A DNA stretch of 64,000 nucleotides, taken from positions 186,001-250,000 of the forward strand of contig NZ_JARGNU010000001.1 in the NCBI RefSeq assembly GCF_029212375.1. Direction: 5' to 3'. A model generated the notes under the pieces. The model ran no database searches. It saw only the letters and a list, made by a program, of their open reading frames with translations, and was not told where the DNA came from. Source of the DNA: Zhongshania sp. (GTDB taxonomy: Bacteria > Pseudomonadota > Gammaproteobacteria > Pseudomonadales > Spongiibacteraceae). The translations under genes and the position numbers were made by a program. Shown here piece after piece: positions 10,564-32,184 of this stretch (position 1 is the first letter of the stretch; each line of letters opens with the position of its first letter).

Positions 10564-10579
10564 TGCAATGCTTGTGCCA
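10564..10579 (-). promoter_or_regulatory. sigma-54 promoter of flgA
   Basis: On the minus strand the sequence reads TGGCACA, four bases (AGCA), TTGCA, matching the -24/-12 consensus TGGCAC-N5-TTGC with correct GG-to-GC spacing. The transcript would start near 10553, 30 bases before the flgA ATG. Confidence 0.75.
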
Positions 10580-10864
10580 GTCTTGTTTGCGGTGTGCGCT
10601 ACTAAATTGGGGCTTACATAGAGGGGTAGGCTGCGGGGCTGAAATAAATAAGGCGGATGGGGGCTGCCGGATTTTTGCCGATCAGCGGCAAAGGCTTGCC
10701 GTTATTTTGGCGGTGGCGCAATTTGATGGTTTTAACTTATTGAAAAATAACAATTTAATTAAGTGGCACGGCCTTTGCCTTGATCCATTGCAAAAGCGGC
10801 ACAAAGCCTAGCTTAAACCGATTAGCGGCTGCAAACCGAATAACTTTAGCGAAATGGTAAGAAA
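10580..10864. promoter_or_regulatory. divergent flgA/flgB regulatory region with sigma-54 promoter of flgB
   Basis: The plus strand carries TGGCACG (10764-10770), four bases, TTGC (10775-10778), a near-perfect -24/-12 promoter. Its transcript would start near 10790, about 75 bases before flgB. With the flgA promoter on the other strand it makes a divergent sigma-54 pair, so one enhancer site for a FleQ- or FleR-type activator could serve both. No gene is convincing in this stretch. Confidence 0.75.
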
Positions 10865-29154: not shown

Positions 29155-29190
29155 TTGTATTTGTCATATTGCACTGCTATACAAATACAA
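29155..29190 (+). promoter_or_regulatory. candidate promoter with overlapping operator upstream of the FleQ-like gene
   Basis: TTGTATTTG (29155-29163) and CAAATACAA (29182-29190) are perfect nine-base inverted arms with an 18-base spacer. The arms coincide with a possible -35 (TTGTAT, 29155-29160) and an extended -10 (TGC before TATACA, 29178-29183), 17 bases apart. A dimeric regulator bound here would block or reposition RNA polymerase. The transcript would start near 29190, which argues against a protein start at ATG 29190. Confidence 0.5.
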
Positions 29191-29216
29191 TGCTTGTGAA
29201 AAGGTTCAGGGACGTC

Positions 29217-30320
29217 ATGACCGCTTCCGCACAAAAAAAAGATAATTTGATTCCAAGTAGGTGTTTTATCGCTGTTCCTAAAGTGATGGAGTCTGAACCC
29301 ATGCAAGCCCTTGATGAGCTAATAAATCAGGTTTCGGGTTTCAATACATTGGTTCTAATTCGGGGTGAATCCGGCAGCGGCAAAGAAGTGGTTGCCCGCC
29401 GGATTCATGCTTCGTCGTCGCGCGCTACTAAGCCATTTGTGCCGGTAAACTGCGGCGCTATTCCTGCCGATTTATTAGAAAGTGAATTGTTTGGCCATGA
29501 GAAGGGCGCTTTTACTGGTGCGGTCGCAACCCGCAAGGGCCGCTTTGAGATGGCTGAAGGCGGCACCCTCTTTTTGGACGAAATAGGCGATATGAGCCTG
29601 CCAATGCAGGTAAAATTGTTGCGAGTTTTACAAGAGCGTTGTTTTGAACGGGTTGGCAGTAACGACACCCAGTATTGCGATGTTCGTATTTTAGCGGCGA
29701 CCCACCGCAATTTAGACGATATGGTGATTGATGGCAGCTTCCGCCAAGACCTGTTTTATCGTTTAGATGTATTTCCCATCGACGTGCCTGCATTGCGAGA
29801 TCATCCCCAAGATATTTCGGCGTTGATGAGCTTGTTTATGTCTAAGCTCGAAGCTAAGGGCATGATTCCCCCAAAATTTTCTAGCAGTGCCATGCGCGCT
29901 TTGCAGCAATATCCTTGGCCAGGCAATGTTCGCGAACTGGAAAATTTAATGGAGCGCTTGGCCATTACCCACAGCACCAAGCTGGTTAAGGCGCAGGATC
30001 TACCGTCTAAATACCAAACACTTGGGGTTGTAGATGCTGATCTAGAGCCCAATCGCGATGATCAAGATGCTTTGATGGCATCGCTCACGGCCTATCATGC
30101 CGATGACGATGATGTCGCATTAGAATTACCTAATGCGGGTGGGCGGCCGCCACTGCCAGACGAAGGTATTGATCTTAAAAGTTACCTACTTGAGATTGAG
30201 CAATGGTTTATTAGCGAGGCCTTGCGCAAAGAAGACGGCGTGATTACCCGCGCCGCTCAACTCTTGGGTTTGCAGCGGACTACGCTTGCCGAGAAAATGA
30301 AAAAGCTTGGGGTGTCGTAG
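29217..30320 (+). CDS. FleQ-like sigma-54 activator lacking the N-terminal domain
   Basis: This 367-residue protein has a full AAA+ sigma-54 activation domain: Walker A GESGSGKE (50-57), the sigma-54 contact loop GAFTGA (97-102), Walker [10 protein letters not shown] (115-123) and the arginine-finger region. The C-terminal Fis-type helix-turn-helix contains [15 protein letters not shown], as in FleQ/FlrA. FleQ is about 490 residues and has a REC-like domain of about 130 residues before the AAA+ core; only about 48 residues are present here. The start is ATG 29217, behind AGGG. The FleQ c-di-GMP motif LFRS is not recognisable in the corresponding stretch. It occupies the fleQ position between fliT and fliE. 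Confidence 0.85.
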
Positions 30321-30328
30321 TGCCGCTA

Positions 30329-30510
30329 CATGCTGAACGGGAGACCATCCTATCGTCTCCCATCAAGCGTTATGCAAGCCCACGTCCGATACGATTAAGA
30401 TATTCGCTTAGCTCACAGATACCGGCTTTCGGGGGTATAACTCCCTAGGATGGATGCGCCTTTGCGTCTCCCATTTCCCGTCAAGCGCTATGCTAGCCCA
30501 CGTCCGACCA
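30329..30510. repeat. palindromic repeat cluster C
   Basis: CATGCTGAACGGGAGACC (30329-30346) is followed by two related units: one around 30354-30390, with CGTCTCCCATCAAGCG and CCCACGTCCGA, and one around 30465-30508, with GCGTCTCCC, CCCGTCAAGCG and CCCACGTCCGAC. The first unit is the inverse of the other two. The cluster fills the gap between the two sigma-54 activator genes. Confidence 0.75.
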
Positions 30511-30607: not shown

Positions 30608-30623
30608 TGGCACAGTGTTTGCA
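30608..30623 (+). promoter_or_regulatory. sigma-54 promoter of the small ORF-fleR-fliE operon
   Basis: TGGCACA (30608-30614), four bases (GTGT), TTGCA (30619-30623) give a strong -24/-12 match with correct spacing. The transcript would start near 30634, 29 bases before the ATG of the 60-residue ORF. In Pseudomonas the fleSR operon is likewise driven by sigma-54 and FleQ. Confidence 0.8.
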
Positions 30624-30662
30624 AACTCAATGCAAAAGCAGTTAAAAAGAGAGTTAGTGCCA

Positions 30663-30845
30663 ATGATTAAGCGTAGCGATACTGACCATCATAGTGAGAA
30701 CCGCAAATCCCTAACGGCAGATTATTACCGCGACCTGTGTCGCCGAGAGCTGGCGCTGAGCGGGCAGCAATTACGTGGCATTTTGGCGGGCCTAGGTAAA
30801 GTGGCTACTAGTGGTATGCCAGCGGGAGGTGCGCGTCATGACTGA
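30663..30845 (+). CDS. unrecognised 60-residue protein in the fleS position
   Basis: I do not recognise this protein. It starts [15 protein letters not shown], is charged in its first half, has a short helical stretch ([20 protein letters not shown]) and ends AGGARHD. It has no histidine-kinase motif. It is the first gene behind a sigma-54 promoter and overlaps the FleR-like gene by eight bases, which implies coupled translation and a linked role. An upstream frame start at 30615 lies inside the promoter and is excluded. It could be a small regulator of the adjacent activator, a vestige, or only a leader ORF that sets FleR translation. Confidence 0.55.
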
Positions 30846-31827
30846 GTTAATTGTGGCAGATACGGCTTCTAAAGCGGTAAAGGATATGGCAACGCGGGTG
30901 GCATTAACCGATGCCACGGTGTTAATAAGCGGCCAGAGCGGCGCGGGTAAAGAGGTGTATGCCCGCTATATTCATGCAAACTCTCATCGTAGCAGCGGCC
31001 CGTTTGTGGCCTTGAACTGCGCGGCGATTCCCGAAAATATGTTGGAAGCAATGTTGTTTGGCTATGAGAAGGGGGCGTTTACCGGCGCTATTAATAGCCA
31101 CGCCGGTAAATTTGAGCAGGCGCAGGGCGGCACTTTGCTGCTAGATGAAATTTCGGAAATGGAGCTTGGCTTGCAGGCCAAGTTGTTGCGTGTACTTCAA
31201 GAGCGCGAGTTAGAGCGTTTGGGCAGCCGTAAAACTTTAAATTTGAATGTGCGGGTGATTGCCACCAGCAACCGTGATTTACGCGAAGTGGTGCGAGCCG
31301 GCATGTTTCGTGAAGATTTGTTTTACCGCTTGAATGTATTCCCTTTGCATATTCCTGAGCTAGCGGCGCGGCGTGGTGATATTTTGCCCCTAGCGCTGAG
31401 TTTTTTAGCCCGCGACAGCAGCGTTCGCTGCGCTGAAAAAGTACTCACCGAGGACGCGCTTGAAAAGCTGATGCACTACCGCTGGCCAGGCAATGTTCGT
31501 GAACTGGATAACGTTATTCAACGCGCCTTAATTTTACGTCAGACCGATGAAATTACCGATCGTGACATTCAATTTGAAACGGGAATGAGTTTTGTTGGCG
31601 AGCAGGTTTATGGGCATGTGATGCCTTCGCGCGACATGGATGACCGCGATTCTAGTGGGGTTAAAGTACTAGACGGCTTTATGCGCGATCAGGAGCGCAG
31701 AATGATTAGTGATGCGCTGCGCCTAGGCCGCTCGAAAAAAGAAGCCGCAGAAATTCTTGGTATTAGCCCGCGAACACTGCGCTATAAATTAGCGCGGCTG
31801 CGCGAACAAAGTTACATCACGGGTTAA
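30838..31827 (+). CDS. FleR/FlrC-like sigma-54 activator lacking the receiver domain
   Basis: This 329-residue protein has an AAA+ sigma-54 domain with Walker A GQSGAGKE (32-39), GAFTGA (79-84) and Walker B GGTLLLDE (97-104). The C-terminal helix-turn-helix [20 protein letters not shown] is typical of FleR/FlrC. FleR normally starts with a receiver domain of about 120 residues that is phosphorylated by FleS; here only about 24 residues precede the AAA+ core. ATG 30838 follows GGGAGG by eight bases. It overlaps the 60-residue ORF and runs into fliE after 12 bases. It probably activates middle/late flagellar genes without phosphorylation. Confidence 0.88.
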
Positions 31828-31839
31828 GGGAGAATTATC

Positions 31840-32184
31840 ATGTCAGACGGTATGAAGGTTGATCAGATATTGACCCAAATTCGGGCTCTGCAGGAGCAGA
31901 CTAGCGTTAGTCGGCCGGGAATGATCGAGGCCGACAGCTTTTCGGTTAACGCCCCCGCCAATGTTAATTTTGGCGCTATGCTTAAGGACTCGATTAATGC
32001 AGTGAATAGCACGCAGCAAAGTGCGAGCGCAATGTCTGCGGCGTTTGAGCGCGGTGATCGCGACGTGAGTTTGGCCGAGGTTATGGTAAATCTGCAAAAA
32101 TCTGACGTTGCGTTTAAGGCGGTGGTTGAGGTTCGCAATAAATTTGTGGATGCGTACCAAGAAGTAATGCGGATGTCGATGTAA
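31840..32184 (+). CDS. fliE: flagellar MS-ring/rod adaptor protein FliE
   Basis: This 114-residue protein links the MS-ring to the rod. It has the conserved FliE pattern NFGAMLKDSINAVNSTQQSA, then SLAEVMVNLQKSDVAFKAVVEVRNKFVDAYQEVMRM. GGGAGAAT precedes the start codon. It follows the FleR-like gene by 12 bases, so it is probably read from the sigma-54 promoter at 30608. Confidence 0.95.
   Translation: MSDGMKVDQILTQIRALQEQTSVSRPGMIEADSFSVNAPANVNFGAMLKDSINAVNSTQQSASAMSAAFERGDRDVSLAEVMVNLQKSDVAFKAVVEVRNKFVDAYQEVMRMSM

Follow-up and report, generated by a model that had tools for sequence, protein, structure and literature searches.

A small, apparently genus-specific protein encoded with a receiver-less FleR, and its candidate role in direct control of flagellar genes in Zhongshania

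How does a bacterium time its middle and late flagellar genes when it shows neither the kinase FleS nor the FleR domain on which that kinase acts? The question is raised by a 64,000-nucleotide stretch of Zhongshania sp. (assembly GCF_029212375.1, contig NZ_JARGNU010000001.1, positions 186,001 to 250,000; "the window" throughout), in which a gene for a receiver-less sigma-54 activator of the FleR type is preceded by a 60-codon open reading frame (ORF). In Pseudomonas and Vibrio, signaling by FleS/FlrB requires the MS ring, the rotor, and the export core (PMC7064773, in the part of the text available). Flagellar genes are retained in the genus of the window, where no FleS can be detected and the FleS target domain is missing, and the checkpoint must therefore run another way or be absent. 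Based on comparative sequence evidence, we propose with about even credence that the small-ORF product serves as a dedicated regulator that would bind FleR and control this activator directly. Strictly linked to fleR, selected, and genus specific, it is a concrete candidate for a replacement of the checkpoint input.

The sequence-only reading of this locus had described a sigma-54 promoter, a 60-codon ORF, an eight-base overlap, and a 329-residue activator lacking a receiver, and all four were confirmed at 30608-31827. The −24/−12 promoter of the operon (30608..30623, + strand) is an exact TGGCAC-N5-TTGCA match (TGGCACAGTGTTTGCA). The small ORF (30663..30845, +), recognized by its reading frame, conservation, pN/pS, and profiles, encodes the 60-residue putative regulator of the fleR product, shares 8 nucleotides with the fleR ORF, and contains a GGGAGG (30824..30829, +) that, from its position 8 nucleotides before the fleR ATG, is likely the fleR ribosome-binding site. 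The fleR gene itself (30838..31827, +) encodes a FleR/FlrC-type activator of 329 residues with an AAA+ domain carrying GAFTGA, a lid, and a Fis-type helix-turn-helix (HTH). Its Pfam domains are Sigma54_activat (residues 5 to 170), AAA_lid_14, and HTH_8, with no receiver among the Pfam matches listed (25 of 29 families), and a sequence comparison with solved structures put the AAA+ domain of Vibrio cholerae FlrC first (314 bits). The GAFTGA form of the sigma-54 contact motif occurs in the 18 genus genomes, and GAYTGA in FleR of the sister genus (L083, L084).

We searched for FliF and found a match in 59 of 76 genomes (the window's own included), among them 18 of 18 from the genus. The stretch upstream of fliF was then taken from 20 genomes, namely, 17 congeners, two members of the sister genus, and one order-mate; G020 gave no FliF match, and its locus was left out. 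Counting the window, the gene before fliE encodes a receiver-less FleR in all 18 genus genomes, and a homologous ORF of 51 to 64 codons, with start codons of our choosing, lies directly 5′ of it in every one. The expectation that the small ORF always precedes a receiver-less FleR in relatives thus held across the genus, and absence of the ORF from close relatives, the outcome that would have spoken against the pairing, was seen in none of the 17 congeners. The two genes overlap by 8 nucleotides in 11 genomes and by 4 in 5, and a 1-nucleotide gap separates them in 2. Side by side with this, FleQ gave no match within the ∼5.5 kb fetched upstream of fleR at L072 (G009), L076 (G012), and L078 (G015), where the pair is intact.

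The promoter is likewise a feature of the genus. Zero-mismatch sigma-54 sites number two in the window, including the one at 30608-30623; allowing up to two mismatches, the pattern was found 20 times against 31 expected from shuffled sequence, so that it is conservation that argues for this site. The best site within 160 nucleotides before the small ORF scored 10/10 in 13 of the genus genomes and 9/10 in the other 5, at 47 to 55 nucleotides from the small-ORF ATG (72 in G004).

The small ORF encodes a real protein; its presence in all 18 genomes, pN/pS values below 1, and its recovery by profiles from which its own clade was withheld place it beyond chance. In each of 26 within-clade pairs, the ratio of nonsynonymous to synonymous differences (pN/pS) stayed under 1, at 0.22 to 0.68 for the full ORF and 0.16 to 0.69 once the last 12 alignment columns were removed. 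Synonymous sites approach saturation in most of these pairs and do so least in G013/G014 (pS, 0.27; pN, 0.06) and G002/G011 (pS, 0.10; pN, 0.04). In all six pairs of equal length, substitutions fell preferentially at third codon positions. Leave-one-clade-out profiles ranked the small ORF first among forward-frame ORFs of at least 45 residues in 18 of 18 stretches, with weak scores for some (E values of 0.054 for G015 and 0.003 for G013). The proteins share the motif C-x2-E-[LIFV]-x6-[LM]-x3-L, in which the Glu, the hydrophobic position, and the L/M are occupied in 18 of 18 and the Cys and the last Leu in 15 of 18; it probably forms a helix, and in 12 of the 18 the mean hydropathy of the segment N-terminal to it is negative.

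These data also bear on whether the small ORF works chiefly in cis, as a leader cistron that couples or tunes fleR translation and whose peptide has little function. The overlapping or abutting stop and start in 18 of 18 genomes would fit such a leader, as would the likely fleR ribosome-binding site inside the small ORF and the fast divergence of its product (17 to 57% identity to the window copy across the genus, compared with 62 to 87% for FleR). We nevertheless regard a mere leader as unlikely, since protein-level selection is seen upstream of the last 12 alignment columns, substitutions are in excess at third codon positions, and the motif is conserved, with an invariant Glu, across clades.

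The same divergence limits what a single sequence can find: because the small protein changes fast, the window copy, used as the sole query, gave a clear match in the two closest congeners only. The window ORF has no match in Pfam or NCBIfam, the 18 members together gave two chance-level Pfam matches (E, 0.056 and 0.22), a comparison with the PDB gave no match (best E, 0.96), and no plasmid match was found for the window copy. In 390 genomes of the order, with at most the best 16 candidates scored per genome, the small-ORF profile reached 43 to 86 bits in the 17 sampled members of the genus and no more than 19.5 bits outside it; among 11 further or repeated genomes with every candidate scored, the 10 outside the genus also stayed at or below 19.5 bits. 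From these profile searches, the small ORF seems confined to the genus.

If the small ORF were a relic of FleS or the FleR receiver, its position in the place of one or the other would be explained, and the sigma-54-to-start spacing of mostly ∼52 nucleotides would fit as well, compared with 54 to 56 where the sister genus has its receiver-bearing FleR. Derivation from the FleS N terminus was unsupported, however (hhalign score, 13.6, equaled or exceeded by 10 of 100 column shuffles; P = 0.16). When gap columns were included in the shuffles, at least 14 of 100 were higher, with one artifact at 132.9, and the reversed profile reached 14.8. Derivation from the receiver plus linker was unsupported as well (profile score, 8.9; 51 of 100 shuffles as high). 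We therefore consider a remnant very unlikely.

The loss of phosphorelay input that the sequence-only reading had suspected is borne out on both sides of the relay. On the kinase side, we built a FleS profile from 19 order-mate proteins (L091 and L093, of 21 candidates, were left out) and ran it on 38 genomes, scoring at most the best 48 candidates in each. It gave 314 to 575 bits in 11 of 17 order-mates, five of which (G023, G028, G030, G031, and G032) are outside the profile; the other six (G022, G027, G033, G034, G035, and G037) showed no FleS-level match, and four of these also lacked a FliF match. None of the 21 family genomes had a FleS-level match, their best scores being 137.7 to 154.3 bits, so the alternative of a fleS elsewhere, paired with a complete FleR, did not materialize. 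The best family match is a kinase of ∼1,000 residues, and the same kind of protein is the runner-up in FleS-bearing genomes. With every candidate scored, the best matches of G005, G006, G018, G019, and G020 were unchanged, and G045 and G054, both in the profile, reached 498 and 386 bits. Three family genomes are less than 90% complete (G003, 84%; G019, 89%; G020, 70%).

On the activator side, the receiver is absent from FleR in 18 of 18 genus genomes, and the reading frame leaves no room for one. The window genome encodes nine other sigma-54 activators at E ≤1e−15, FleQ included; since none of these exceeds 51% identity to FleR across the aligned portion or 233 bits in score, no second FleR was seen there.

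To place these losses, we compared 38 order-level regions. A FleR with an N-terminal domain stands beside fliE in 25, and the 13 regions without FleR in that position were left out. A candidate FleS ORF lies directly before FleR in 21; of the remaining four loci, those of G034 and G058 have no FleS ORF, that of G027 has a 293-codon ORF, and that of G042 is cut by a contig end. The N-terminal domain of FleR is altered in G034, G058, and G027, and these genomes have no FleS-level match. Both sister-genus genomes encode a full-length FleR; the receiver of G019 retains the acidic pair, the acceptor Asp, and the Lys, and in that of G018 the acidic pair is DS and the acceptor is Glu. Neither carries FleS or the small ORF (best small-ORF match, 16.2 bits, inside a 1,293-codon frame). 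This distribution suggests that the flagellar kinase was lost repeatedly, with receiver decay coming after. Altered FleR receivers in genomes without a FleS-level kinase are found at L084 (G018), L120 (G034), L122 (G058), and L111 (G027).

Of 80 loci, 22 were examined for gene order and 10 were offered to a FleR tree, from which L128 was left out because the P-loop pattern missed it. The family forms a supported clade (96/91). A single origin of the receiver-less FleR together with the small ORF appears in 50% of bootstrap trees, and in the drawn tree two changes are required, because the branching of G004 against the sister genus is unresolved. L129 and L153 fall elsewhere, L153 on a long branch. 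Taken together, the comparisons suggest that FleS was lost, that the receiver then decayed or disappeared, and that the small protein was added only in this genus.

Under the reading that we prefer, the FleS checkpoint kinase would have been lost in the family ancestor and the FleR receiver subsequently lost in this genus, leaving the AAA+ and DNA-binding core. From the transcript of the sigma-54 promoter, the protein of 51 to 64 residues would be translated first and, through the overlapping or abutting genes, in step with FleR. It would then bind the FleR core and modulate its activity, delaying middle and late flagellar genes until the basal body has been assembled, and would act either as a brake that this assembly relieves or as a required coactivator. 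The isolated FlrC AAA+ domain is described as a heptamer with or without nucleotide, with no ATP-dependent remodeling (PMC6504787, in the part available). A bare FleR core could likewise assemble and be active once made and may thus need another brake, for which reason the cotranslated small protein most likely binds FleR. By analogy with FlrC, an inhibitory (anti-activator) sign appears the likelier one, because the isolated domain assembles its ring unaided. A more elaborate version, in which the small protein replaces both kinase and receiver, keeps the FleR ring inactive until basal-body construction has gone far enough, and is then removed, perhaps through the flagellar export gate as FlgM is, strikes us as doubtful; if true, it would make the small protein a secreted anti-activator acting on sigma-54 flagellar genes and the checkpoint a phosphorylation-free one.

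The locus resembles FleS/FleR of Pseudomonas and FlrB/FlrC of Vibrio in the AAA+ and HTH domains of FleR, in its place upstream of fliE, and in the sigma-54 promoter. Unlike these systems, it has no receiver and no FleS-level kinase, and an apparently unrelated small protein stands in the kinase's place. FlbD of Caulobacter crescentus has no cognate kinase and is bound and controlled by FliX, and thus offers the likeness of a kinase-less flagellar sigma-54 activator for which a dedicated flagellar protein ties transcription to assembly (PMC3096577, PMC7064773, and PMC3930126, each in the part available). FliX is about twice the length of the small protein, and its model (PF10768, 135 positions) matched none of 19 genomes (13 of the genus and 6 order-mates) and, among 14 controls, matched Caulobacter only.

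PspF of Escherichia coli is, by length and alignment, also an AAA+ and HTH activator without an N-terminal regulatory domain. It is controlled in trans by the helical PspA, docking via a YLW patch (PMC3791423, in the part available). PspA, at ∼222 residues, is far longer than the small protein, and none of the 18 small-ORF members has a PspA-family Pfam match. HrpR and HrpS of Pseudomonas syringae are not known to have receivers, and HrpV, which acts on them, is small. There, too, a negative regulator protein controls sigma-54-type activators (PMC4145663, in the part available); that system serves type III secretion rather than flagella, and we set it beside the small ORF by description only. 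By analogy, FliX/FlbD is the closer functional precedent than PspA or HrpV. The small ORF-FleR pair would resemble FliX/FlbD and PspA/PspF in function and, by the tests made, belongs to neither. We found no description of a receiver-less FleR with a small partner in a literature search that covered titles and the beginnings of abstracts, most subscription journals lying outside its coverage.

Several observations weigh against a dedicated FleR-binding regulator. The small protein diverges much faster than FleR (17 to 57% compared with 62 to 87% identity), which is unusual for a tight shared interface. Few FleR residues separate the genus from its sister genus (Y41, S130, R192, and D292 among those listed; 21 of the 25 order-mate FleR proteins were used), and the comparison points to no clear new surface on the genus FleR. 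Helical amphipathicity of the motif exceeded that of shuffles (P < 0.05) in only 2 of 18 proteins (median P, 0.25). None of the three residues of the PspF YLW patch (Y51, L52, and W56) is found in any of the 18 FleR proteins, a point against PspA-PspF, which the sequence-only reading had offered as a model for the small protein. Finally, a receiver-less FleR without the small ORF occurs directly after a short FleQ at L129 (4920-5945) and L153 (4929-5930), in two metagenome-assembled genomes that have no small-ORF match anywhere and no FleS-level match (best, 111 and 124 bits). A receiver-less FleR without the ORF in two lineages means that the small ORF is not an automatic by-product of receiver loss and that FleR need not have such a partner.

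These two lineages, along with the self-assembly of the isolated FlrC core (PMC6504787, in the part available), would also fit a constitutive FleR controlled only by its expression, with the small protein as a minor modulator or stabilizer. Retention of a selected small protein in 18 of 18 genomes of the genus argues otherwise, and we hold a constitutive FleR to be highly improbable.

The small protein might instead act on another flagellar partner, such as the export apparatus, the FliT/FliD chaperone cycle, or FleQ, and share the operon for timing only. Comparing profiles, we saw a weak resemblance between its motif and the C-terminal helix of FliD (score, 19.3, reached by 0 of 100 shuffles), but FliD ranked only 4th of 51 window proteins by single sequence (P = 0.13) and was picked after matches had been seen. 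Given that poor rank and post hoc choice, the similarity is kept as a weak lead only. The small ORF moreover keeps its place beside fleR in 18 of 18 genomes, including G009, G012, and G015, in which no FleQ match lies in the fetched upstream stretch. A different partner is accordingly rather unlikely. If the small protein does act on FleR as a dedicated regulator, a phosphorelay input would be swappable for a protein partner, and the pair would be a gammaproteobacterial counterpart of FliX/FlbD, independently reached.

The gene order in the window is a FleQ-like gene, the small ORF, fleR, fliE, and fliF, the last two assigned by Pfam. The fliE gene (31840..32184, +; Pfam FliE), the downstream neighbor of fleR, is kept in 20 of 20 family stretches. 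The FleQ-like master activator (29190..30320, +) lacks an N-terminal regulatory domain; both the name FleQ and the start codon are our reading. The corresponding ORF has 354 to 394 residues in 17 of the 20 family stretches (420 in the window if begun at an upstream TTG), compared with 461 to 512 in 11 order-mates, and a short FleQ also occurs in G059, G034, G058, L124, L129, L151, and L153. Elsewhere in the window, divergent strong sigma-54 sites (10564-10579, −; 10764-10779, +) lie between flgA (Pfam ChapFlgA) and a rod-protein gene that we read as flgB, and they are possible targets of the window FleR. A 32-base direct repeat, 91% identical between its copies (30358-30389 and 30476-30507), lies between fleQ and the sigma-54 promoter.
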